DNA of 23,998 nucleotides from a virus. The position numbers and the translations under genes were made by a program. The DNA lies in the IMG/VR virus record IMGVR_UViG_3300033978_000195, positions 1 to 23,998 of that record; one strand, 5' to 3'. Of the stretch, positions 954 to 22,727 are shown piece after piece (positions within the stretch are counted from its first letter, which is position 1; the number at the start of each line of letters is the position of its first letter). Below the pieces are notes generated by a model that searched no databases, was not told the DNA's origin, and saw only the letters and a program-made list of their open reading frames with translations.

Positions 954-1312
954 AAGAACAAATACGTAACTATTTTGCTAATCAGCAAGTAGGTATGACA
1001 AAAGACACATATTTTGAAATGTGTGAATTATTAGGTAATACTCCTATAGCTAGCGAAATACCAGTAGATTTTGATGACTTTCCCTTAGAAGTTCAACAAG
1101 CATTTACAGTATATAGAATGTTACGTGATGACTGGGAAGGTTTTGGCGGAAACTACTTAGGAAAAAGTTTCGTAGGTTTAATAGAAATATTAGACTTTGC
1201 GGAAATAGACCAGGAAGATAGAAAATTAATATTGCTAATTATTAAAATGATTGACAATATTAGAATAGATGAATTAGTTAAAAAACGCAAAAACGAAAAG
1301 CCTGCTGATTAA
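534..1312 (+). CDS. Tail assembly chaperone frameshift fusion (lambda gpGT-like)
   Basis: The join is 534-926 followed by 926-1312, giving 131 zero-frame codons plus 128 codons in the -1 frame, 259 residues. The extension begins LFEEQLKAVEEQIRNYFANQ and continues through the reading frame holding the ATG at 995 to the end (ELVKKRKNEKPAD). The extension is helical and acidic/aromatic (MTKDTYFEMCELLG, DFDDFPLEVQQAFTVY), ending in a Lys-rich tail. In lambda the T extension recruits the tube subunit to the gpG-coated tape measure, and a fixed G:GT ratio set by the frameshift is needed for assembly. The stop codon falls inside the 1297-1330 terminator region. The second half could in principle also start independently at ATG 995, but there is no good ribosome binding site there. 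Confidence 0.8.
920..926 (+). other. Programmed -1 ribosomal frameshift site GGGAAAC
   Basis: The heptamer fits the X XXY YYZ rule in the zero frame (G GGA AAC). Slippage into -1 places the ribosome on codons beginning at 926 (CTT TTC GAA GAG), and this frame stays open to TAA at 1310-1312. Lambda uses GGGAAAG at the equivalent place to make gpGT. I see no strong downstream stem or pseudoknot by eye. An AGG lies about 10 nt upstream (907-909) and could act as an internal Shine-Dalgarno-like stimulator. Confidence 0.85.
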
Positions 1313-1330
1313 AAACTAGCAGGCTTTTTT
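1297..1330 (+). terminator. Rho-independent terminator after chaperone genes
   Basis: The stem AAAGCCTGCT (1297-1306) pairs with AGCAGGCTTT (1318-1327) around an 11-nt loop, and T residues run to 1330. The ascending arm lies inside the last codons of the chaperone extension and the stop codon is in the loop. Very good match to an intrinsic terminator. It separates early tail genes from the tape measure operon. Confidence 0.88.
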
Positions 1331-1350: not shown

Positions 1351-1379
1351 TTGACATTTTAAAACCCTTGTGGTATACT
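1351..1379 (+). promoter_or_regulatory. Sigma70-type extended -10 promoter for the tape measure/tail tip operon (P1)
   Basis: TTGACA (1351-1356), a 17-nt spacer and TATACT (1374-1379), with TGG directly before the -10 giving an extended -10. The spacer contains CCCTTGTG (1365-1372), which recurs at the same distance in the promoter at 21631. It lies about 20 nt after the terminator T run and about 50 nt before the tape measure ATG. No other convincing promoter was seen before 21631, so it probably drives roughly 20 kb of genes. Confidence 0.85.
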
Positions 1380-1431: not shown

Positions 1432-4400
1432 ATGTCTAATAACATAGATTTAAATATATCGGTACTGGATAAAGGTAATACCTTAAAACAGAGAAATAAT
1501 GAAGCCGATAAACTTGGTAAGACAATAGAGCGTGTTAATCAGCTAACTGCAGCCAGTGGTACTAAATCCGGAGCGCAAGCTATGCGCAGAGCAGGATTTG
1601 ATCCAGACGGCGGCGAAGTTGCTGATTACAATAGAGCCCGTGGTGCTGCTGGTGCCGGCGGGGCTAGTGCTCGTGATTTTGCAGATCAGGCTCGTGGCTT
1701 AGGCGGTTTAGTCAGACTGTATGCTACTTGGGCAGCAAATATATTTGCTGTAACTGCTGCATTTAACGCACTTCGTGATGCAATGCAAACTGAAGTTATG
1801 ATGAAGAGCCTAAATCAACTAGGCGCTTCAACAGGCATAAGTTTAGGTGGTATTGCAAAAGAATTTGCTAACGCTACTGATGGTATGATTAGTTTACGTG
1901 AAGCTGCAGAAGCTACAGCTAAAGCTATGAGTAGTGGCATGACACGGGATCAATTTTTACAACTAGGCCAAGTAGCTAAAGGTGCAGCCCAAGCACTAGG
2001 TTTAAATATGAGCGATGCCGTTAGTCGATTAACTCGTGGTATTACAAAATTAGAACCAGAACTATTAGACGAATTAGGTTTATTTACTAAAGTAGGTAAA
2101 GCTGCAGAAGATTATGCTCGTAAAGTTGGTAAAGCAGAAAGTCAATTGACTGATTTTGAACGCCGTCAAGCTTTTGCTAATGCAGTTATTGCCGAAGGCC
2201 AGAAAAAATTTGGAGATATAGCACAAACCGGTAATCCTTACGATCAACTACTAGCAGAATTAAAGAATACTGCCCAAGATATTTTATCTGTTATAAATAC
2301 TATAGTATCACCTATAGCAAAACTATTAGCTGATAATACTGGATTAATTGGAGCAGCGATTTTAGGTGCTGCATATAAGATTACTAGGCAAGCATTACCT
2401 GAATTAGCTAAATGGAATAAAGGTTTAAAAGATAGTGCTGATCAAGCTAAAGCTCGTGCAGGAGAAATTAACGAGCAATTTCAATTTGCATTTTCAAAGA
2501 AGGTAGCTAGTGGATTAGGAATACCAAACTTAGAAGCTAATGTAGCCGCAGCTAAAAAGCAACTAAAAGATGCGCAAGCAGAATTAGCAAAAGTTGCTAG
2601 CGGCGAAGGCATGGATAAGCGTGTTGCACAAAGCAAATGGTTTGGTAAAGCAACCAGCGAAGATGTTATTAATGAAAAATCTATAAGTAAGCTTAATGAG
2701 TTAAATGCTAAATATGCTAATGATGAAGCTGGAGCCAAACAAAAAGTTGCACAAGCAGCTCAAAAAGTACTAGATGCTCAAAAACAATTAGTAACAGCTA
2801 GTACGGCGTTAGAACAAAAAGATGAAAAATTACAAGACGTACTACAAGAACGTAGCAGACTGCTATCTGGGTTATGGCAGCGTGAAGAAATACTGCGTAG
2901 AGCCAGAGCAAAAGCAGCAGATCTAGATATTAGAAGTCGTGTAGGAGAGAATGTTGATAGACTAGGTGTACTTGGCGGAATAGGGGAATTATACAAAGAA
3001 GCCCAAGCTAGTAAAGATTTAAGTAATCTTGGTAAGATTAGAACAGTTGGACTAGGTACTTTCCAAGCACTAGCTAGAGGAGCTGACATATTAGTAAGCT
3101 CATTATCACGAATAACTAGTTGGATAGCTGGAGCTTATATTGTATTTCAGTTATTAGATGGCATATTTAATTCAAATGCTAAACAAGTAAAAATATTAAG
3201 TAATTCTTTAGATCAATTAGAAGAAACAGCTAATACCTCTTTAGAAACACTACAAAAGTGGAGCGGAAGTATAAGCGCAGAAGCTGTTATAGCCAGAGCC
3301 AATAGTTTTGATGGATTAACTCTAGCACTTAAAAATGTTAGTCAAGGTTTTGAAGAAGCTAGAAAGGCATCTGGATTATGGGATCGTTTTTGGGACGGTT
3401 TAGCAGAAATTACTCCATTTGTAGACAGTCTGCAAGAAAAAACTAGTAAACAGGTTGGAGCCGCTTTAGCACAAAGTATTAAAAATTTACCTGCTGGTCA
3501 AACCAAGAGTGAATTCCAAACAAAACTAAGACAAATACTAGAAATCGATCCTAAAAAGACTTTAGACGCAGATACATTAATTGCAGCCTTAGAGAGTATA
3601 GATAGCGGAAAAATTAAAGGTAAATTGCGAGAATTAGCCGAACAACAGTCTAAGACTAATGAAAAATTTCAAGAAGCTAATGTATACTTAAAAGGTTTAA
3701 AAGATAGTGAAGAGCAGGCTGAAAAAGCTATGACTAGTTTTATGAACAGTTTAAAAAATACCAGCCCATTAAGCCAATTTTTTGAAACTAGTATAAAATA
3801 TAGTGTAGAATTAGGCAAAGCACTTGGTGCGCCAGATTTTGACGCCGTTGCAGGCGCTATGGATAAACTATCAAAAACAGACTTGTCTAGATTTGGATCA
3901 CAAGCACTAGCATTAAATGATATTGCTAGAGAGTTTAAAGAAATACAGCCCAGATACGAACAACTTAGAAAAGTAGCAGAAGGAGCGCAAGCTCAAGTTG
4001 ATCAGCTTAAAAAGAGCTTTGATGGAACTTGGAGAGATGCAGGTGTTGCTCCAGCGATTAAAGAAAAATTAAAAGAACAGCAACAAATTCTCAATAATGC
4101 AAATCAGCAACTAGCGGATATAGAAGATAGAATATCACAAATTGCAAATACAGCAAAAGATCTCATTACTAAAAGTACGCTTGAACAGGTAAAGTTAGCT
4201 ACAAAAGAATTTGACTCAAAGATGCGTGAAATATCAAATAATACTTTACGCGAAATTATGAGTAAATTACCTGTAACTACGGTAGAAGGAGCACGTCTAG
4301 AAAATGAGCTAAATAAGCGACAGATAGATATTGAAACTGAGATGATAAAAAGCCAAGCGGCTTTAGGAGACTCAATAGATCTATTACGAATACAAATTAG

Positions 4401-6537
4401 TTTATCTAATGATATAGCTGAGCGCGATAGATTAGATAGGGCATTATTCAAAAGTGAAGCAACTCAAAAACGTATTCAAAACCTTGATAAGAAAATTGCC
4501 ATCGGTCAAAATGTAGAGCAGCTGATTTCTAGTGGTACAAAAGATCAACTAGAAGCCGCAGCAGCTGAATTACCAGGATTATTTAGTATTATTCAACGTA
4601 GGCTATCAACTCAAGTCCGATTAGCGAGCCAAGAGCAAAAACGCGCATTAAATGATTATACTAGCTTATTAAAAGAATTAGATATAACTGTTAAACAAGA
4701 TTTAGACAGATTACGCTTTCAATTAGAGTCACTAAATCAAGCTATCAGCACAATTGGTAGTGATACTCCTGAAAAATTATCAGCTCAAATAAATTTAACT
4801 AGATTTGCAGTTCAGCGTGAACGCGAAATAATTATACAAGAAGAAAAGAAATTATTAGACCAACAAGTATTACAGCGTGATACTATGTTAAAGCAGGCTA
4901 AAGATGGTAAAGCCCGTGGTCTAATTGAAGAAACTTTTGCGGCCAATACTAATTTAATAAAAACCGAAGCAGATAGAAAGAAGCTTTTATTAGATCAAAA
5001 ATCGATCTATAACGAGCAAGTTCGCGTTGCTGAACAAATAGAAATGGTTGAAAAACGTTCACAAGAGTTAGCTATCAAACGTCTAGAAGCTCAAAAAACC
5101 ACTACACTAGGTTCAGGTATAGAAGCAGAAAAAGCAAGAGCAGGCTTAGAAGCTAAAATTAGAGATGCTCAAGATAAAATTGCAGCCGCTGCTGACAAGA
5201 AAGCTCTTAAACAAGCAGAAGATAGGTTACAATCTTTTAGAGCCACTATTCTTAAAACGCAAGGTGATCAGCCATTAACTCCTGAACAAGATGCAACTTT
5301 AACAGAGCTAACAAACCTTGTAGATAGTACCAAACAATTAAACAAAGAACAAGACGATTTAAGAAGTACTATTAGTGGAGCTGCTGGAAAAGCTAGCGAT
5401 TTTAATATTTCGTTAAAAGAAGCAGCTAATATTACAGCACAAATAAATGCACAACAAAATGCAGCTAGAATATTAGACGATCAGTATTTTCAAAAACGTA
5501 TGTCTGGGTTAGATTTTGAAAAACAAAGACTAGATATTTTAAATAATTTAGGAATGTTAACTGCTGATGAGATAAAGCAACAACAAGTAGCTTTAGATAT
5601 AAGACGCATCGAGTTAGATTTAGATCAAAATTTAGCTAATTTAGATAGAGAACGCATTTTATTAACACGACAATTAACTGTAGCTAAATTAGAAGCAGGG
5701 GCTGCTGAAGGTAGAAATGTTAGCGGCGATGCAGGCGTAATTGCAGCTCAACAGGCAATCGACACACTAGACGCAAACCGTAGAAGTGCTATAAGCAGGG
5801 CAAGAGATGCAGTTGATATGGCAAGCAACCAGTTACTAGTAAGTGACAGGTTTGAAAATTACGCAAAAGAGTTTAAAGAATTATTTGATGGTATGGCTGA
5901 TTCTATTGTTCAATTTTCGAAGACAGGCAAGTTTGAATTCAAGAGCTTAATAAATAGTTTCTTAGACGATATATTGCGCTATGAATTACGACTACAGATG
6001 CATGCCTTATATGTTCAAACCTTGCGTCCTTTACTTAGCGGAGTGTTAAGTGCTTTAGGATTGGGCGGCAGTGCAATTAGTATAGGTGCTGGCAGTATAG
6101 GAGATTATGGCTTTACAGATGTTAATGCAATGGGTAATGTATACGATGCAGGTTTACGCAAGTATGCCAAAGGCGGTATGTTTACTAACGATATAGTTGC
6201 TAGTCCTACTTTATTTAAGTACGCTAAAGGTGGCTTACCTGGTAGAGGCTTAGGTCTAATGGGAGAGGCAGGGCCAGAAGCTATTATGCCGCTAAGACGA
6301 GATAGTCAAGGTAATTTAGGTGTTATAGGAGCCCAACAAGGTAATGTAGAAATTGTTGTTAATAACTATACTTCACAGAAGGCGGAAACTAAGGAAACAG
6401 TTGATGCACGAGGTAATCGTAGAGTTGAAGTAGTTATTGGAGACATAGTAGCTGATCAAATGACGTCCAATAATAGTAGTGTTCAACAAGCTATGTTAGC
6501 AGGATTTGGAGCCAAACCAAGAATGGTTAGGAGATAA
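1432..6537 (+). CDS. Tail length tape measure protein (lambda gpH-like)
   Basis: A 1701-residue, largely helical protein that spans the tail lumen, fixes tail length and is later ejected with the DNA. The start is supported by GGAG at 1423-1426. Hydrophobic stretches lie near residues 89-117 (LYATWAANIFAVTAAF), 302-322 (TGLIGAAILGAAYKITR), 552-580 (ITSWIAGAYIVFQLLDGIF) and 1533-1558. They could cross the host inner membrane during injection. Between and after them are long Lys/Glu/Gln-rich coiled-coil segments, especially residues 350-500 and 850-1480. The C terminus carries the lambda-family signature near 1609-1633 (GEAGPEAIMPLRRDSQG, then NLGV) preceded by two YAKGG motifs. At about 0.15 nm per residue it predicts a tail near 250 nm. 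It lies directly downstream of the chaperone pair that would fold it. No peptidase or lytic transglycosylase motif was recognised inside it. Confidence 0.95.
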   Translation: MSNNIDLNISVLDKGNTLKQRNNEADKLGKTIERVNQLTAASGTKSGAQAMRRAGFDPDGGEVADYNRARGAAGAGGASARDFADQARGLGGLVRLYATWAANIFAVTAAFNALRDAMQTEVMMKSLNQLGASTGISLGGIAKEFANATDGMISLREAAEATAKAMSSGMTRDQFLQLGQVAKGAAQALGLNMSDAVSRLTRGITKLEPELLDELGLFTKVGKAAEDYARKVGKAESQLTDFERRQAFANAVIAEGQKKFGDIAQTGNPYDQLLAELKNTAQDILSVINTIVSPIAKLLADNTGLIGAAILGAAYKITRQALPELAKWNKGLKDSADQAKARAGEINEQFQFAFSKKVASGLGIPNLEANVAAAKKQLKDAQAELAKVASGEGMDKRVAQSKWFGKATSEDVINEKSISKLNELNAKYANDEAGAKQKVAQAAQKVLDAQKQLVTASTALEQKDEKLQDVLQERSRLLSGLWQREEILRRARAKAADLDIRSRVGENVDRLGVLGGIGELYKEAQASKDLSNLGKIRTVGLGTFQALARGADILVSSLSRITSWIAGAYIVFQLLDGIFNSNAKQVKILSNSLDQLEETANTSLETLQKWSGSISAEAVIARANSFDGLTLALKNVSQGFEEARKASGLWDRFWDGLAEITPFVDSLQEKTSKQVGAALAQSIKNLPAGQTKSEFQTKLRQILEIDPKKTLDADTLIAALESIDSGKIKGKLRELAEQQSKTNEKFQEANVYLKGLKDSEEQAEKAMTSFMNSLKNTSPLSQFFETSIKYSVELGKALGAPDFDAVAGAMDKLSKTDLSRFGSQALALNDIAREFKEIQPRYEQLRKVAEGAQAQVDQLKKSFDGTWRDAGVAPAIKEKLKEQQQILNNANQQLADIEDRISQIANTAKDLITKSTLEQVKLATKEFDSKMREISNNTLREIMSKLPVTTVEGARLENELNKRQIDIETEMIKSQAALGDSIDLLRIQISLSNDIAERDRLDRALFKSEATQKRIQNLDKKIAIGQNVEQLISSGTKDQLEAAAAELPGLFSIIQRRLSTQVRLASQEQKRALNDYTSLLKELDITVKQDLDRLRFQLESLNQAISTIGSDTPEKLSAQINLTRFAVQREREIIIQEEKKLLDQQVLQRDTMLKQAKDGKARGLIEETFAANTNLIKTEADRKKLLLDQKSIYNEQVRVAEQIEMVEKRSQELAIKRLEAQKTTTLGSGIEAEKARAGLEAKIRDAQDKIAAAADKKALKQAEDRLQSFRATILKTQGDQPLTPEQDATLTELTNLVDSTKQLNKEQDDLRSTISGAAGKASDFNISLKEAANITAQINAQQNAARILDDQYFQKRMSGLDFEKQRLDILNNLGMLTADEIKQQQVALDIRRIELDLDQNLANLDRERILLTRQLTVAKLEAGAAEGRNVSGDAGVIAAQQAIDTLDANRRSAISRARDAVDMASNQLLVSDRFENYAKEFKELFDGMADSIVQFSKTGKFEFKSLINSFLDDILRYELRLQMHALYVQTLRPLLSGVLSALGLGGSAISIGAGSIGDYGFTDVNAMGNVYDAGLRKYAKGGMFTNDIVASPTLFKYAKGGLPGRGLGLMGEAGPEAIMPLRRDSQGNLGVIGAQQGNVEIVVNNYTSQKAETKETVDARGNRRVEVVIGDIVADQMTSNNSSVQQAMLAGFGAKPRMVRR

Positions 6538-15282: not shown

Positions 15283-15617
15283 TGGCTACAACATATGGCC
15301 TACAATTATTTGATACTGCAGGATTACTAGAACTGGATTCTAGTTCTAGTATAAATGCTGGAGTATTTGTTAGAAGTATAACAATACCTTCAACTGGTAA
15401 CAGTACAATACTTTTTAATGGACAGGCACAAGGATCTTTTGGTACTCTGCCTAATCTAGTTAACAGAACAATATTTTGGATAACGTTATTAAATGGAGAC
15501 CAGGATATTAGACTATATACTAGTCCAGAATCATATCCTGGCATACAATATTCTCAGTTAAGTAGCTCAGATTTAGGAACAAGGAGAACAAGTACTATAC
15601 TTGTTTTTGTAAGATAA
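15282..15617 (+). CDS. Small YGLQ-type tail protein
   Basis: 111 residues, beginning MATTYGLQLFDTAGLLELDS. The YGLQxF(N/D)xxGxxxxD start is shared with the N terminus of the following giant fibre and with an internal segment of it, so the three copies are paralogous. The rest is beta-rich (VFVRSITIPS, FWITLLNGDQDIRLY, TSTILVFVR). I associate this opening with small phage minor tail or fibre-attachment proteins, but no function is established from sequence. It overlaps both neighbours by one base (TAATG at 15280-15284 and 15615-15619), so the three genes are translationally coupled. It could be a cap or adaptor between the fibre at 12259 and the Calx-beta fibre. Confidence 0.65.
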   Translation: MATTYGLQLFDTAGLLELDSSSSINAGVFVRSITIPSTGNSTILFNGQAQGSFGTLPNLVNRTIFWITLLNGDQDIRLYTSPESYPGIQYSQLSSSDLGTRRTSTILVFVR

Positions 15618-18600
15618 TGGCATACGGATTACAAAGTTTTAATAACGCTAACGAATATTTATTAGATAGCGACTACCCTAAACCGTGGTTTCATGCAAAA
15701 GCTACACTATATGGGCCTACAACAACAGGCCCATATACTGTTAAGTTTAGAGAAGGTGACGGTAGCGGTGGCTCTACACAGTTAGAGTTTAGAGCTTATA
15801 CATTAAATTATACTGCACCTAATCACGGCGTTAATCAAAAAACTGGATTTGCACTAATAACCATGCCAAATACTGAAATTTGGTATGCATGCGATAATTA
15901 TTGGCAATCTGGAATTAATGGTGCTTTTACAATATATGCATTAGTTCCTAGTACATATAATAATCCAGACGGTAGTTATAAAGAAGGCAGTAGTGATATA
16001 CCAGAAGTATATCTATTTTGTCACGAACATATTAATTTAACTAGTAGCAGTGGTACTTATGGTATGCAGATGTTTAATGCTGCAGGCCTATGCACGTTTG
16101 ATACAGGTCAAAAAATATTTAGACCTGTTGAAGGACAGCTATTGTATCATCCATATCCTAGTTTACGTGCAAGTATAGCTACGGCCAATCCTATTATTGA
16201 TACAGTATTTCCATATGTGCCTGGTGGTACACCTACTAGTTTTAATTTTGGTTATACCTTTTCAAAACCAATATTTTATTTACCTAAACTGTATTCTACT
16301 ATTAGTGCACCAGCAGTTGGTGGCAGAGCTAATCAGTATCAGGTGCAAGTAGGAGATCCTTATTTTATTTTTGAGGCAATGTCATTTTATAGACGTACTA
16401 GCGCCACACAAGTTGCTATAAAGCCTTATCTTAGAAATATTATATTTGAACAGGAATCCATAGGAACATTTCAATATTCTGTAGATGGTGCTGGCCAAGG
16501 ATTTATTATTATTTCTGATGGTAATAGGTATCCTGTTACTAGCGGCGGAACTTTTCCTTCTGCTACCTATAATATTACTGCTACTCCTAGTTCACCTAGT
16601 GAAGGCACACCGTTTACTATAACTATAAGTACTACTAATGTTCCAGCCGGTACAACATTTAATTATATGATGACAGGTAGTACTCTACTATCTATAGATC
16701 TTAATGTACCGCTAACAGGCACAATTACTATTGGTTCAAATGGACAAGCTACAATTACTCCTATAACAGCACTAATAGATGAATTTGATGACACAGAGCA
16801 AGTTGATTTTGTTCTTAAAGATAGTGTAACAGACGAAATAGTTAAAATATTTACTTTTACACTTACAAATACTCCAGCTCCAGCTGCTAGCTATGTATTG
16901 TCAAAGACTCCAGCTACTGGTGCTATTAGTGAAGGTAGTAGTTTTACTATTAGAGTAGATACTACATATGTTGCTGTAGGAACTCAATTAGGTTATACTG
17001 TTAGCGGATTGGATAGTTTAGATGGTAGTAATGTAGCTACTAGTGGAACATTTCCTGCCATACAAGGTACATTTCAGAGTGGTTATACAGAGAAAACTTT
17101 TTATACTACAGCAGATAATAGAACAGACGGTCAAAAAACTTTTACACTTATACTAACCGCAACTGGTCAAACAATACAAATAGTTATTAATGACACTAGC
17201 CAGTTTCCTACACAGGGAACTATGGTTAATTTAACAACTGCTACTTCTAGCAGAGACGAGGGACAAACAGCTACTGTTAGAGGCGATTGGGATTTCAATC
17301 AGTATACTTATGATAATAGGACCTTTAAATTACAAATAGCTAGTGGTAGTACAGCTAATAGTAGTGATGTAACAATTAGTCCAAGTGGATTTGTAACTCT
17401 TACTACCGTTTATAGTGGTGGAGAAATATTATCTATTTTTAGAAATTGGTCAGTTAGCATAACTAACGACTTAACTACTGAAGCTGGTAGCCCAGAAACA
17501 TTATTGCTTGAATTAGTAGACGCTAATGGTAGTGTTTATGATACACAAAGTATTACAATAAATGATACTAGTCAAACTCCTGCACCTACAGTATCGCTAT
17601 ATAGTGCGAGTCCTAGTGTTGATAGTGGTACTGGTTTAATATACTTAAATGAAACTACTACTAAAACTTTAAGCTTAACAGTTACATTAGATTTTACCGT
17701 AGCCAATGTACCAGTTTACTGGAAAACAAATGGCAGCGCAAACTTTACTAGTGCAGATGTAGATACTAGTTTAAGTGGAACTATTTATACTGTTGTAGGG
17801 CAAGTACAAAGAACACTACCAGATATTACAATTAAAACCGATTATACAACTGAAATTACAGCAGAAAGTTTTAGTATAGGATTTTATAGTGATAGCAGTT
17901 ACACTACACTATTATATCAAAGCCCAACAGTAAGTGTTAATGACACTAGCCAAACGCCAACATTAAATATATCCAATGTTTCAATAACGCCTAATCCCGT
18001 AGACGAGGGAAATAGTACTAGTATTGTATTTACTATACAAGATAGCGTAGTTCAAAGTATTTACTTTAAAATAGTAGGCGGAGCTGGTTTTAGCACAGGA
18101 GATGTATCTAGCTATACGCCAGCAACGAACACTTTTCAAAGTGCTACCGGGGCGGGAGCGCAACAAACAATTACAGTAACATTAAATGCCGATGCTACAA
18201 CAGAGGGCACAGAGCAATTTTATATTTATTTCTTTACTGCAGGTACTTGGAATAGTGGCAGCCCTGTAGACTCTAATCGTTGGGGGCTAATAGGACCAAT
18301 AAATGTTAACGATACTAGTACAACTCCTATAGTTAGAACATTTACCCGCAGCGTTAGCGAAGTAAATGAAGGAGGTAGTTTTAGTATAACATTTACAACT
18401 AACCAGGCTGGTAGCTTTAATTATAGTATTCTTGGAGTAAGTAGTGCAGATATAGGTGGTGCTAGCTTAACTGGTACAGTTAGTAATGGTACAGTATTAA
18501 ACTATACAGCTAGTTCTGATAGTGCAACTGAAGGCGACGAAACCTTTACTATTAGATTAGATTCGTATACTGATGTAAATACTAGTGTAATAATTAGAGA

Positions 18601-21478
18601 TACTAGTTTAACACCAGCACCTAGCGCAGCATCAATATCACTAAATACTCTTGGACAAAGTTTAAGTGGTGGTTATATAAGCAGTGGAGTCTATTGGGTA
18701 ACATGGACCCTAAGCAGCCAAACTACTATAATCTTTAGTACTGAACATGAACTACCCATAGGTGCAACTGGTGTAGATACCAGTATAGCTGTATATAATA
18801 GCAGTGGAATATTGCAGCACACATCTGGAGCAGGTGATGACGATGGTATAGACAATCGCGGCGTTAATTATAGTAGTAGATTATCGCTAACACTAGCAGC
18901 TGGAACTTACTATGGTGCTATAGGAGTTTACTCTGGATCCTATACTTTTAGTAATTATTGGACAGTGTCAGGATTTTCTGCAACAACCCTAAACAATAAT
19001 ATTAGTAATATACGTGTTAGTTTATGGACTGGTACCCCTCAGCCACAATTACAAGGTGTTAGTGCGCCTAGTAGCGTTAATGAAGGTGATACCGCCACAT
19101 TTAGTTTCACGCTATTAGATACCACAGACAGAACACTATACTGGAGAATTGTTGGTACTAATACTAGTGCCGGTGATTTTACCAGCAGTACTAGTGGCAG
19201 TTGGGCTAATCAGTGGCCTAGAAGCTCACAAAATCTTAGTGTTAGTATAGCAGCAGATTCTACAACTGAGTCTACTGCAGAAAGCTTTAAGTGGCAACTA
19301 TCAACTACTAGTAATTTTAGCGATATATTTTATGATACAGCCAGTTCAGCAACTAGTACAACTATAAATGATACCAGTCAAACACCAGTACCTTCCTGGA
19401 GTTTTGGTACACCACCTGCAGAAATACATGAAGGCGTTACATATGGTATAGCCTTTTTTGCAAGTAATTGGTCTGGAAATACAGCATACTTTTACTTAGT
19501 TGGTCCTAGCAGTGGTACAAATGCTAGTGGTGAAGTTAGCTTACTAACTAGCAGCACGTATGTTAATTCTAACTATATAGATGTGCAAGTAAACTTTACA
19601 GCAACACAAGACTATAACACAGAAGCTGACGAATTTTTTAGAATAGAAGCTAGAAACAGTGCAGGAACAGTTTTGGCTACTAGTAGTAATATTAAAATTA
19701 TTGCTAAAGGTGCACCTAATTATTACTTTGGAGCTATTCCAGATCCAATGAATGAGGGCACCACTTATAGCGTAACATTTACAGCTGAAAATATTAGAAA
19801 CACTACTTTTACGTTTCAAACAATAGCTCCTACAAGCGGAACAAATGCTAGTGCTGAGGTAAGTATTAGCCCCTCAAGCTGGACTTCATCTAGTAGCAGC
19901 GATAGTAGTAGCGTTACGCTTAGTATTACACCAACAGCAGATGGAGTAATAGAATTAGACGAATATTTTAGATTTGGTGCCTATATTGGTGGGTCACTTG
20001 CCACAGGCACAGGAAATATTAGAATACCAGGAGATGGAGCAGCACCTAGTGGAACATTTAGTGTTAGCCCTAGTACCCATACTGGTGTAGCAAATATTTA
20101 TGGTGATTGGTCTATTAGCGGTAATCCTACGCCGTCTGTAAGAATTGACAGCGATCAAGGCTATCAGGCAACTAGCTTAGGTACACAAGGAAGCAGTTTA
20201 TTAGAAACTAACGTAGCTCAAACTACTACTTATACACTTACAGCAACTAATGCATTTGGTACACTTACTATTAATAGTACTTCAACAGTACCAGGTGTTA
20301 GCGCTACCCTAAGTGCAAGTCCTAGTACAATTACTGCTGGTCAATCTAGTACACTAAGCTATACAACTACAAATGCTACATATGCAAACATTAATAATGG
20401 TGTAGGCGGGATTACTGTAGGAAGTGGCAGTGTTGTTGTATATCCTACTTCAACTACAACTTATACCCTTAGTGCTTTTAATGCTCAAAATAGTGGCAGC
20501 GCTCAAGCAACGGTTACAGTAAATCCTGCTAGTGGTACCTACTTAAGTCAATACTGTAGTGGTTATACACTGTACTATCGCTATGCTAATGGCTCTGGTG
20601 GATATTATGATCAGGTTCAGGAATACAACAGCCCAACTTGTGGATATGTAGCACCTCCACCTCCTCCGCCGCCACCTCCACCTCCTCCGCCACCTCCACC
20701 TGCGCTAAGTACTAGTAATTCGTATGTAAGCCCAGCTAACCCAACTAGTCAATATTTTAGTATTATAGTAGGATTAGATCAGCCAGCAACTACAACAGTA
20801 TATTTAAATGCTAGTATTACATTTAGAAATAGTGGCGGCGGTATAACTGCAGGTCCAAATAATGTGTCTAATATTGGACAAATTAATCCAGGATCTCAGA
20901 CGTTTACCTATACTGCAAATGGTGCAGATGGTTGGACAAATGCAGATAGTACTGGTTGGTATAACCGTATTGATTGGACTTCTAATGAGGCACCAGGTAC
21001 GGCAACAACAACTTTTTACTACTATTGGGCACCACCTCCTCCACCACCTCCACCACCTCCTCCAGCACCACCACCGCCAGCTCCACCACCCCCTCCACCG
21101 CCTCCTCCACCACCTCCACCCCCACCTCCGCCACCTGCAAGTGGCCCAGTATATGTAAGCTATAATATTACTGGAGGCGATAACGCTACTAATAATACTG
21201 TTAATGTAAGTCTATTTTTAGTAGCTGGACAAACGTTGCAGGCAGGTACTGGACCAACTGGTGCAAGCTGGGCTCCTGGTATAGTGTGGAATGGTACTGA
21301 TAGTTATATAAGACTAGTAAACGGTTCTGGTACTACTGTTATTGTTGATGATGACGCCGCTGGTGGCTTAGCATCTTATTTTTCTTATAGTGTGTCAAGT
21401 ACTGGTAATTATACACTAAAATTTGGTGCATATAATAATAGTAATGCTAGCGGTACAGGAGCATATAGAATCACTTAA
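15617..21478 (+). CDS. Giant modular fibre/adhesin with Calx-beta-like repeats and polyproline hinges
   Basis: 1953 residues. Residues 1-315 hold two YGLQ-type units (AYGLQSFNNANEYLLDS; TYGMQMFNAAGLCTFDTG near 148), likely the virion attachment end. From about 318 to 1470 there are about nine Calx-beta-like domains of roughly 100-125 residues, each with an SEG or NEG turn at the start (PSEGTPFTI, ISEGSSFTI, VDEGNSTSI, VNEGGSFSI, VNEGDTATF, MNEGTTYSV), a late TTEG/TTES acidic turn, and often ending NDTSQTP. A different domain sits at about 1000-1145 (GDDDGIDNRGVNYSS, LAAGTYYGAIG), PPC/DVUA0089-like. Then come two Ig/PKD-like domains (about 1475-1642), a Cys-pair module (YCSGYTLYYR to SPTCGY), 16 prolines (1680-1695), a roughly 110-residue beta domain, a Pro/Ala tract (1806-1840), and a terminal PPC-like domain. 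No signal peptide, so it is virion-borne, probably a side fibre. Calx-beta folds often bind calcium, which is plausible here but unproven. Confidence 0.82.
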   Translation: MAYGLQSFNNANEYLLDSDYPKPWFHAKATLYGPTTTGPYTVKFREGDGSGGSTQLEFRAYTLNYTAPNHGVNQKTGFALITMPNTEIWYACDNYWQSGINGAFTIYALVPSTYNNPDGSYKEGSSDIPEVYLFCHEHINLTSSSGTYGMQMFNAAGLCTFDTGQKIFRPVEGQLLYHPYPSLRASIATANPIIDTVFPYVPGGTPTSFNFGYTFSKPIFYLPKLYSTISAPAVGGRANQYQVQVGDPYFIFEAMSFYRRTSATQVAIKPYLRNIIFEQESIGTFQYSVDGAGQGFIIISDGNRYPVTSGGTFPSATYNITATPSSPSEGTPFTITISTTNVPAGTTFNYMMTGSTLLSIDLNVPLTGTITIGSNGQATITPITALIDEFDDTEQVDFVLKDSVTDEIVKIFTFTLTNTPAPAASYVLSKTPATGAISEGSSFTIRVDTTYVAVGTQLGYTVSGLDSLDGSNVATSGTFPAIQGTFQSGYTEKTFYTTADNRTDGQKTFTLILTATGQTIQIVINDTSQFPTQGTMVNLTTATSSRDEGQTATVRGDWDFNQYTYDNRTFKLQIASGSTANSSDVTISPSGFVTLTTVYSGGEILSIFRNWSVSITNDLTTEAGSPETLLLELVDANGSVYDTQSITINDTSQTPAPTVSLYSASPSVDSGTGLIYLNETTTKTLSLTVTLDFTVANVPVYWKTNGSANFTSADVDTSLSGTIYTVVGQVQRTLPDITIKTDYTTEITAESFSIGFYSDSSYTTLLYQSPTVSVNDTSQTPTLNISNVSITPNPVDEGNSTSIVFTIQDSVVQSIYFKIVGGAGFSTGDVSSYTPATNTFQSATGAGAQQTITVTLNADATTEGTEQFYIYFFTAGTWNSGSPVDSNRWGLIGPINVNDTSTTPIVRTFTRSVSEVNEGGSFSITFTTNQAGSFNYSILGVSSADIGGASLTGTVSNGTVLNYTASSDSATEGDETFTIRLDSYTDVNTSVIIRDTSLTPAPSAASISLNTLGQSLSGGYISSGVYWVTWTLSSQTTIIFSTEHELPIGATGVDTSIAVYNSSGILQHTSGAGDDDGIDNRGVNYSSRLSLTLAAGTYYGAIGVYSGSYTFSNYWTVSGFSATTLNNNISNIRVSLWTGTPQPQLQGVSAPSSVNEGDTATFSFTLLDTTDRTLYWRIVGTNTSAGDFTSSTSGSWANQWPRSSQNLSVSIAADSTTESTAESFKWQLSTTSNFSDIFYDTASSATSTTINDTSQTPVPSWSFGTPPAEIHEGVTYGIAFFASNWSGNTAYFYLVGPSSGTNASGEVSLLTSSTYVNSNYIDVQVNFTATQDYNTEADEFFRIEARNSAGTVLATSSNIKIIAKGAPNYYFGAIPDPMNEGTTYSVTFTAENIRNTTFTFQTIAPTSGTNASAEVSISPSSWTSSSSSDSSSVTLSITPTADGVIELDEYFRFGAYIGGSLATGTGNIRIPGDGAAPSGTFSVSPSTHTGVANIYGDWSISGNPTPSVRIDSDQGYQATSLGTQGSSLLETNVAQTTTYTLTATNAFGTLTINSTSTVPGVSATLSASPSTITAGQSSTLSYTTTNATYANINNGVGGITVGSGSVVVYPTSTTTYTLSAFNAQNSGSAQATVTVNPASGTYLSQYCSGYTLYYRYANGSGGYYDQVQEYNSPTCGYVAPPPPPPPPPPPPPPPPALSTSNSYVSPANPTSQYFSIIVGLDQPATTTVYLNASITFRNSGGGITAGPNNVSNIGQINPGSQTFTYTANGADGWTNADSTGWYNRIDWTSNEAPGTATTTFYYYWAPPPPPPPPPPPAPPPPAPPPPPPPPPPPPPPPPPPASGPVYVSYNITGGDNATNNTVNVSLFLVAGQTLQAGTGPTGASWAPGIVWNGTDSYIRLVNGSGTTVIVDDDAAGGLASYFSYSVSSTGNYTLKFGAYNNSNASGTGAYRIT
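20654..20701 (+). repeat. Polyproline tract 1 (16 Pro codons)
   Basis: Sixteen consecutive CCN codons (CCT, CCA and CCG mixed) encode residues 1680-1695 of the giant fibre, directly after the Cys-pair module. Mixed codons limit replication slippage. The template strand is a GGN repeat. Confidence 0.95.
21032..21136 (+). repeat. Polyproline tract 2 (11P-A-4P-A-18P)
   Basis: Thirty-five codons encode residues 1806-1840, 33 prolines with two alanines. It links the penultimate beta domain to the terminal PPC-like domain. It is in the same codon phase as the tract at 20654, so recombination between them would delete the domain in between in frame. Confidence 0.95.
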
Positions 21479-21494
21479 CTTGTTAAGTGATTTT
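21469..21494 (+). terminator. Intrinsic terminator overlapping the giant fibre stop codon
   Basis: A 10-bp stem AATCACTTAA (21469-21478) / TTAAGTGATT (21483-21492) has a CTTG loop, and the T tract runs through 21494. The TAA stop forms the end of the ascending arm. The stem is AT-rich, so it may be leaky, which would explain the second terminator at 21589. Confidence 0.75.
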
Positions 21495-21588
21495 AGATCG
21501 ACAAATCTACCCCGACCTGGCGACCGAGCTGACTAAACCAACTTGGAAACCACAGGTCGACTAACAAAGAACTCAAAAAGTTCCGCTC
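21495..21588 (+). other. GC-rich intergenic segment with potential RNA structure
   Basis: This is noncoding and lies between two terminators. Positions 21511-21560 contain 29 G/C of 50, well above the surrounding genes. A 7-bp arm pair CGACCTG (21513-21519) / CAGGTCG (21553-21559) encloses a 33-nt loop. A second CGACC (21521-21525) could compete for GGTCG. Smaller hairpins are AGAT (21495-21498) / ATCT (21504-21507) and GAACT (21569-21573) / AGTTC (21579-21583). It is not a tRNA: there is no T-loop or CCA end. It may be a small RNA, a 3'-UTR element, or a remnant of acquired DNA. No promoter of its own is evident. Confidence 0.4.
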
Positions 21589-21626
21589 AATGCCCTGCTC
21601 AATAACGATTGAGCAGGGCATTTTTT
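21589..21626 (+). terminator. Strong intrinsic terminator before the second fibre operon
   Basis: A perfect 15-bp stem AATGCCCTGCTCAAT (21589-21603) / ATTGAGCAGGGCATT (21608-21622) has an AACG loop, and T residues continue to 21626. It is the strongest terminator in the window. It ends only 4 nt before the -35 box of the next promoter. Confidence 0.92.
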
Positions 21627-21630
21627 ATAG

Positions 21631-21659
21631 TTGACAAGTCTTTGCCCTTGTGATATAAT
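21631..21659 (+). promoter_or_regulatory. Sigma70-type extended -10 promoter for the second fibre operon (P2)
   Basis: Perfect TTGACA (21631-21636) and TATAAT (21654-21659) with a 17-nt spacer and TGA directly before the -10. The spacer contains CCCTTGTG (21645-21652) at exactly the same offset as the promoter at 1351. Expected to be very strong. It has no obvious operator. Confidence 0.9.
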
Positions 21660-21781
21660 ATACAAGAGTTGAGAAAGGTTTAAATATTTTTACTTGACAA
21701 CAGCGGAGCCACTAAAATTAGTTGGCAGACTAGCTACAATTAAACCTGTATGTTAACCACTGCTAACAAAGAGGAGCTGCA
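21660..21781 (+). promoter_or_regulatory. Long 5' leader with ribosome binding site for the coiled-coil protein gene
   Basis: A roughly 115-nt untranslated leader, longer than any other in the window. It contains a potential stem CCACTAA / TTAGTTGG (21709-21724, one mismatch or bulge). The ribosome site is GAGGAG at 21771-21776, 5 nt before ATG 21782. A 14-codon reading frame (21750-21794) overlaps this start but has no good ribosome site of its own. Confidence 0.5.
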
Positions 21782-22126
21782 ATGGATGCTGTAGAGAATA
21801 ACAGCCTGATACAAACTATTAGTGTAGCAGGAATGGCCTTAATTGCCCTAGGCGTAGGTATACAAAAATTAGTAAAAGAGTGGCGTAGTACCGATGCAGA
21901 AACCAGTGTTATTAAAATGATGCACGAGGAGTTAGAGCGTATGGGTACACAAAATGCTAAGCTCACTGAGGAACTAACTAAGTTGCAAAATGAGATTGTA
22001 GAGCTAAACACTCAGCTAACTAAGTTAAGTATAGAAAATAATAAACTTCAACAAGATATAGCAGCACTAACAACTGAACTTAACAGTTTTAAGAAGTTAG
22101 CAGCAATAAGAAAGGTAAAGGTGTAA
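21782..22126 (+). CDS. Membrane-anchored coiled-coil protein, unknown function
   Basis: 114 residues. Residues 9-29 form one hydrophobic helix (LIQTISVAGMALIALGVGI) after a short acidic N terminus, followed by a basic stop (QKLVKEWR). Residues 44-105 are a long coiled coil with Leu/Ile spacing (LTEELTKLQNEIVELNTQLT) and a basic tail (AAIRKVKV). The predicted topology is a single N-terminal membrane anchor with a cytoplasmic or periplasmic coiled coil. It is the first gene of the operon driven by the 21631 promoter and is preceded by GAGGAG. Its place ahead of fibre genes is unlike a lysis cassette, and no partner holin, endolysin or lipobox is seen, so spanin or holin calls are not supported. 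It may aid tail fibre assembly or act at the membrane. I do not recognise a named family. Confidence 0.75.
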   Translation: MDAVENNSLIQTISVAGMALIALGVGIQKLVKEWRSTDAETSVIKMMHEELERMGTQNAKLTEELTKLQNEIVELNTQLTKLSIENNKLQQDIAALTTELNSFKKLAAIRKVKV

Positions 22127-22127
22127 C

Positions 22128-22727
22128 ATGACAATGACACCTGCTAAAATTAATTATAAGATTTATCAGGGTAGTACTTTTAAAGAAGTCTATCGCTGGG
22201 AATCGCAAACTAAACAGTATGCTAACATTAGTGCTATTACAAAAGCAGCACCTTGTGTAATTACTACTAGTGCAAATCACGGTATTCCTAGTGGTTGGCG
22301 TGTGCGCGTTACAGGTGCAGGCGGCATGAAAGAAATTAACATGACTGCTGAAGATAGTTACTATATTGCTACTGGTGCAGGCAATAATACTATAACCCTA
22401 AACCAAGTAAATAGTGCAGGCTATACAACTTATACTAGCGGCGGTGTTGTAGAGTGGAATACTCCAATACCACTAACAGGTTTTACAGCTAAAATGCAAC
22501 TACGTGAAACTATTGATAGTTCAGTAATACTAGAACTTACACACCTAAATGGTGGTATATCAATAGATACCGCAAACTATACAATTACAGTAACAATGAC
22601 CAGCGCACAAACTGCGCTATTTAATTTTCCCACAGCAATTTATAGCCTAGAACTAACTGATAGCAACGGCGACGTAACAACATTTATTCAAGGCAACCTA
22701 ACCTTAATACAGGAGGTTACACGATGA
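22128..22727 (+). CDS. BppU-like tail/baseplate protein with an inserted E1-FCCH-like domain
   Basis: 199 residues, starting 1 nt after the previous stop. ATG 22134 is an alternative start two codons later. The outer parts, residues 1-30 (KINYKIYQGSTFKEVYRWES) and 111-199 (PIPLTGFTAKMQLRETIDSS, then IYSLELTDSNGDVTTFIQGN and LIQEVTR), fit the BppU N-terminal-like fold of phage upper baseplate or fibre adaptor proteins. Residues 31-110 interrupt it with an independent module: ITTSANHGI, VRVTGAGGMKEIN, NTITLNQVNSAGYTTYTSGG. This is the pattern I associate with the ubiquitin-activating E1 FCCH-like domain frequently found in phage tail proteins. It probably links the fibre at 22977 to the tail. 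It overlaps the next gene by ATGA. The family names come from motif memory, not a search. Confidence 0.75.
   Translation: MTMTPAKINYKIYQGSTFKEVYRWESQTKQYANISAITKAAPCVITTSANHGIPSGWRVRVTGAGGMKEINMTAEDSYYIATGAGNNTITLNQVNSAGYTTYTSGGVVEWNTPIPLTGFTAKMQLRETIDSSVILELTHLNGGISIDTANYTITVTMTSAQTALFNFPTAIYSLELTDSNGDVTTFIQGNLTLIQEVTR

Follow-up and report, generated by a model that had tools for sequence, protein, structure and literature searches.

A Conserved Spacer Box in a Promoter Behind the Tail-Fibre Genes

The promoter at position 21631 of the phage DNA analysed here follows a strong terminator and carries a six-base box, GCCCTT, in its spacer. Judged by its record of change in related phages, GCCCTT is a real, constrained box that is strictly kept at this promoter. 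Our best explanation, put forward tentatively, is that a terminator and a strong sigma70 promoter adjoin here and that GCCCTT is most likely read by a protein acting with the polymerase.

The whole stretch analysed, the window, is the 23,998-base virus record IMGVR_UViG_3300033978_000195 (positions 1 to 23,998, one strand). It contains a siphophage tail module, in which two tail assembly chaperone genes are followed by the tape measure, minor tail proteins, the tip protein J and long fibre-like proteins, and then by a 114-aa and a 199-aa gene. The fibre-like protein encoded directly upstream of the second promoter cassette (15617-21478, 1953 aa) has polyproline runs near its end. No DNA similar to the window was found among 50,697 phages. 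Judged by its tape measure and J protein, the window has its nearest isolate in a phage of Curvibacter, and the 199-aa protein has a distant match in a Limnohabitans phage, which together suggest a freshwater betaproteobacterial host. A search of the whole window against Rfam gave no RNA family at gathering score, and sub-threshold matches lay only around the second site.

Two Sites Share the Promoter Motif

The motif TTGACA-N8-CCCTTGTG-N-TATAMT occurs exactly at 1351-1379 (TTGACATTTTAAAACCCTTGTGGTATACT) and 21631-21659 (TTGACAAGTCTTTGCCCTTGTGATATAAT), so the observation behind the original prediction, two promoters with an identical 8-mer at identical spacing, is confirmed. The exact motif appeared in none of 100 dinucleotide shuffles; within the window there was no further copy with up to 3 mismatches, and CCCTTGTG was not found elsewhere on either strand. 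The first site and the genes downstream of the two promoters are as follows.

1351..1379, plus strand: first promoter, TTGACA-TTTTAAAACCCTTGTGG-TATACT, upstream of the tape-measure gene, with the A/T-rich, UP-like AAAATTTTT before it
1432..6537, plus strand: tail length tape-measure protein gene (PHROGs tape measure), downstream of the first promoter
21782..22727, plus strand: genes of the 114-aa protein (weak family matches only) and the 199-aa tail-module protein (phrog_1084), the first of the second unit

Taking an extended -10 promoter as the two hexamers, a 16-18 bp spacer and TGN before the -10, both sites are of this sigma70 type, with 12/12 and 11/12 hexamer matches, a 17-bp spacer and TG. 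They are the only window promoters with at least 11/12 hexamer matches and a TG extended -10, save one on the minus strand at 17940, whose spacer is 18 bp long. The shared 8-mer consists of two pieces, TGTG, which is an ordinary extended -10 (TRTG), and CCCT, which is the special part. The claim that the 8-mer goes beyond sigma70 expectation therefore stands for CCCT and falls for TGTG. The TG was invariant in the orthologues of both sites. Outside the hexamers and the 8-mer, the two window sites have nothing in common, and their flanks are unrelated.

A collection-wide scan found the motif in at least 118 viral stretches. Of the further 76 loci that were read completely, the majority lay upstream of the tape-measure gene or of the 114/199-aa genes, and the remainder belonged to other phages. 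Relatives carried one or two sites per contig, and the notion of a phage promoter family did not hold up. Five matches in other phages (L105, L115, L120, L148 and L149) had the form GGGG(C)TTGACA-N-CAA(G)CCCCTTGTG, an inverted repeat around the -35 in which the same letters are arranged differently.

Terminator and Promoter Form a Fixed Unit

Both promoters follow intrinsic terminators, as had been noticed before, and the second terminator is preceded by a conserved block in the 3'-UTR.

about 1295..1330, plus strand: intrinsic terminator that overlaps the chaperone gene at its end; fold -17.7 kcal/mol, z -5.6
21491..21588, plus strand: conserved 3'-UTR block of ~95 nt that separates the fibre stop codon from the terminator and is confined to the window subclade
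21589..21627, plus strand: intrinsic terminator found by the scan, 15-bp stem, T6, hairpin and T-run at 21589-21622 with fold -25.3 kcal/mol, z -8.7, predicted to end the tail-fibre transcript

Because of its long loop the first terminator escaped the simple scan, and folding was used to verify it; hairpins were present at the tape-measure site of L271, L309 and L313 too. The second shows compensatory pairs in its stem (alignment A1), and with a GC-rich stem, a U-tract and compensatory change it has the attributes of an intrinsic terminator.

In the window the U-tract of the second terminator ends 4 nt ahead of the -35. The distance was 3 nt in 52 and 4 nt in 9 of the post-fibre loci (61/61), and the terminator stems across these 61 loci were of several unrelated sequences with the same U-tract. 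Since the spacing is fixed while the stems differ, terminator and promoter constitute one fixed punctuation unit. The unit persisted with an unrelated fibre gene upstream and with a different gene downstream (L001, L002 and L019), and it was missing from loci whose 199-aa protein has less than about 47% identity. Fused at 3-4 nt, terminator and promoter would make a compact natural insulator bordering the variable tail-fibre module. RNA pairing between the box and a terminator arm was rejected, since GCCCTT stays while the stems become unrelated sequences.

The 3'-UTR block, represented by 11 distinct sequences, contains small hairpins and a GGCGACC core that hardly varies. Block and terminator together fold with z -7.6, with weak pairing support outside the terminator, and the block had no match in Rfam. 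A coding role was rejected: the one peptide-like frame has stops in several members and lacks a start codon, and the identity reaches third positions too.

The Box Is Conserved at the Post-Fibre Site

Post-fibre loci were fetched through the 199-aa protein, so that the motif was not used for sampling, and 50 of them were placed on the tree of that protein. The promoter finder demanded the hexamers in this set; neither the TG nor the rest of the spacer was demanded. The elements of the site are listed below with their behaviour on the tree.

21631..21636, plus strand: -35 hexamer TTGACA, first five positions constant in 50 loci, the sixth changing twice
21638..21643, plus strand: freely varying 5' part of the spacer (positions 2-7), 6-14 changes per position
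21644..21649, plus strand: conserved spacer box GCCCTT (positions 8-13), 0-3 changes per position in 50 loci
21650..21653, plus strand: extended -10 element (R)TG-N, here GTGA, TG constant at both orthologous sites
21654..21659, plus strand: -10 hexamer TATAAT, never changing in 50 loci
21664..21781, plus strand: transcript leader to the 114-aa gene (alignment A2)

Spacer positions 8 to 13 changed 1, 0, 3, 1, 0 and 0 times, respectively. Compared with the 6-14 changes at each of positions 2-7, this indicates that the box is under selection. Position 14 was G or A and changed 5 times, and position 17 changed 7 times. No inverted repeat of the kind that marks a classic dimer site was found around GCCCTT. 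In the leader, no shared RNA fold was detected (RNAalifold, 0 pairs). The leader also holds a conserved segment at about 21688-21702, TTTTTACTTGACAA. At these positions, and in nearly all relatives aligned (A2), it bears a second conserved TTTTTnCTTGACAA, whose TTGACA lies 64 bp after the first TTGACA and is without any -10.

A Possible Role for the Box and the Basal Alternative

By sequence, each site is a terminator followed by a very strong sigma70-type promoter, with a perfect -35, a 17-bp spacer, an extended -10 and a perfect or near-perfect -10. One late unit would thereby end and the next restart at a fresh level, from chaperone to tape measure at 1351 and from the variable fibre to the conserved tail genes at 21631; such stopping and restarting would insulate both the tape-measure gene and the conserved tail genes from whatever precedes them. 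Host RNA polymerase would read the -35, the TG and the -10, with TRTG as its extended -10. At 21631, GCCCTT is proposed to be a second, promoter-specific recognition element, most likely contacted by a sequence-specific protein together with the polymerase.

A serious rival to this proposal requires no regulator: contacts of polymerase or sigma with the spacer would favour CCCTTRTG, and selection for late output would keep it. We regard this as possible, on the doubtful side. It agrees with the rest of the promoter being at sigma70 consensus and with TRTG being a polymerase-level motif. The tape-measure site also favours C at spacer position 9 (25/30) and T at position 13 (22/30). Against a general optimum, CCCTT at the same offset was found in 0/28 other perfect TTGACA-N17-TATAAT promoters of the same contigs, a control set from which a few tape-measure promoters of other lineages and the near-variant GCCCTCGTG (G012) were not removed; 17/28 had the TG. 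It is this specificity of the box to one promoter, rather than to strong promoters in general, for which we prefer a box-reading protein.

Bacterial genomes bear on the same alternative. The exact pattern had 69 matches in 84,980 species genomes, mostly in Clostridia, and some of these loci precede tRNA-like genes, which speaks for a polymerase-level preference; base counting alone would yield about one match. Clostridial genomes, however, each hold dozens of perfect extended -10 promoters with varied spacers, and with so many promoters the 69 matches need no special explanation. Gammaproteobacteria, as a GTDB class, include Burkholderiales. None of 273 gammaproteobacterial genomes carried the pattern, and a 274th that did had been picked for having one. 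Together with the mostly clostridial matches, this led us to reject a host promoter motif.

A third recurrent promoter, upstream of a PhoH-like gene, has a fixed 3' spacer half of its own, GGTCTG, which pairs with CAGACC beyond the -10; 21/32 of these promoters have at least 6 pairs, compared with 0.6 expected. As this half is conserved for a different cause, a conserved spacer half is, in these phages, specific to its promoter. The PhoH -10 is enclosed in the loop of an inverted repeat of 4-11 bp (GGTCTGC...GCAGACC; L334-L399, for example L396; G001:42708-42736), with compensatory changes GGCCTG/CAGGCC and a loop length of mostly 13-16. This repeat may serve as an operator, or it may form a terminator-like hairpin whose loop harbours the promoter. 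No inverted repeat centred on the -10 was present at the 1351 and 21631 sites.

The Tape-Measure Site Does Not Follow the Post-Fibre Site

The original prediction would fail if spacers varied freely at orthologous promoters. It does not fail on this count at the post-fibre site, where GCCCTT-R-TG is conserved and the rest of the spacer drifts; the tape-measure site varies and does not follow it. In tape-measure loci, which were sampled through the chaperone protein, the TG was fixed and the C at spacer position 9 changed only twice. Positions 10-14 changed 4-6 times each, a rate close to that of the remaining spacer, and orthologues outside the CCCTT branches read CCATATGTG, GGTCACATG or GCCTATRTG. 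These data would fit another serious reading, that the identity of the 8-mers is mostly coincidence: TGTG is expected, and the tape-measure CCCT arose without shared function. We consider this somewhat unlikely; it addresses nothing but the sharing and can hold alongside the other explanations. It is opposed by the near-constant C and by the presence of CCCTT on three distinct branches of the tape-measure tree, those of the window clade, L295 and L313, which is more often than expected of a 5-mer with a 1-in-1000 chance.

Contigs such as G006, G010 and G016 had CCATATGTG at the tape-measure site and GCCCTTGTG after the fibre. That a contig can keep the box after the fibre and have another spacer at the tape measure indicates that the two sites are not tightly coupled. 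Because the box is not maintained at the tape-measure site and mixed contigs exist, a single regulator for both sites is doubtful. The earlier interpretation holds in part, and a regulator is possible.

Antitermination Loading and Mobile Cassettes

Q and AlpA use a conserved protein-binding element within the promoter, which for Q lies between -35 and -10 (PMC6606751, PMC9371919). Because the Q element occupies the same promoter place (PMC6606751), we considered a phage protein that would dock on the spacer and attach to a polymerase paused early, so that later terminators are read through. The long late units after each promoter would suit such loading, but we judge it improbable. A strong terminator closes the unit of the first promoter, and a polymerase under antitermination would pass it by. 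Unlike the Q/AlpA systems, the sequence here is another one, there are two sites instead of one, and no PF06530 protein was found. The Q family (PF06530, Phage_antitermQ) matched 0/8 relative records, which may be incomplete. No clear pause element emerged: in the initial transcribed region, the tape-measure set averaged 3.8 matches to a -10-like element, compared with 3.0 elsewhere.

The view that both sites are copies of one mobile terminator-promoter cassette, which had also been suggested, draws on the block staying together while flanking genes change, but it is largely refuted and very improbable, since the sites have only the hexamers and the 8-mer in common, each sits at its own orthologous position across divergent phages with one copy per contig, and the 3'-UTR block motif occurs once per contig, save for one 2-mismatch match in unrelated sequence.

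T5-Like Relatives and Candidate Box Readers

For the preferred reading, in which a protein reads GCCCTT together with the polymerase, the D5-like helix-turn-helix (HTH) proteins of these phages would be the best candidates, perhaps setting late timing. The 99.7-kb relative G001 has T5-like genes, namely NAD-dependent DNA ligase genes, DNA polymerase A and D5-like regulators. Five D5-like HTH proteins are encoded there: a 248-aa regulator whose HTH resembles sigma region 4, together with four small paralogues of ~106-132 aa (L332:6395-13049, L331:3888-4631). They are candidates because the T5 record annotates D5 as DNA-binding and as necessary for DNA replication and for late transcription.

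T5 relies on host polymerase with sigma70 for all three of its gene classes, and how the switch from one class to the next works has been reported as unknown (PMC7472727). The T5 promoters P-G25 and P-J5 are likewise strong late sigma70 promoters of host polymerase in the tail region, and P-G25 stands directly after a terminator, beside the tape-measure gene, with an A/T-rich stretch upstream of its -35 (PMC7472727). In contrast to the window promoters, P-G25 and P-J5 are without the TG extended -10 and without CCCTT. Sigma70 late promoters adjoining terminators are already known from T5 (PMC7472727). The post-fibre promoter resembles extended -10 (TRTG/TGN) sigma70 promoters in TTGACA-N17-TATAAT and TG-N before the -10, and differs in the conserved GCCCTT directly upstream of RTG. 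A limited literature search found no description of this conserved spacer box.

More broadly, T5-like freshwater phages might mark late sigma70 promoters with promoter-specific spacer boxes read by a D5-like HTH paralogue and polymerase. We rate this extension as unlikely; if true, regulator-read boxes would fill a gap in the unexplained passage from early to late transcription in T5-like phages. A box in the spacer of an otherwise perfect tail-gene promoter offers a concrete 6-bp target for a test.

In G001, heme oxygenase and ferredoxin-dependent bilin reductase domains were also seen downstream of the tail module, reminiscent of cyanophage auxiliary genes; from their sequence, the corresponding ORFs may be L329:18181-18714 and L329:18698-19381.
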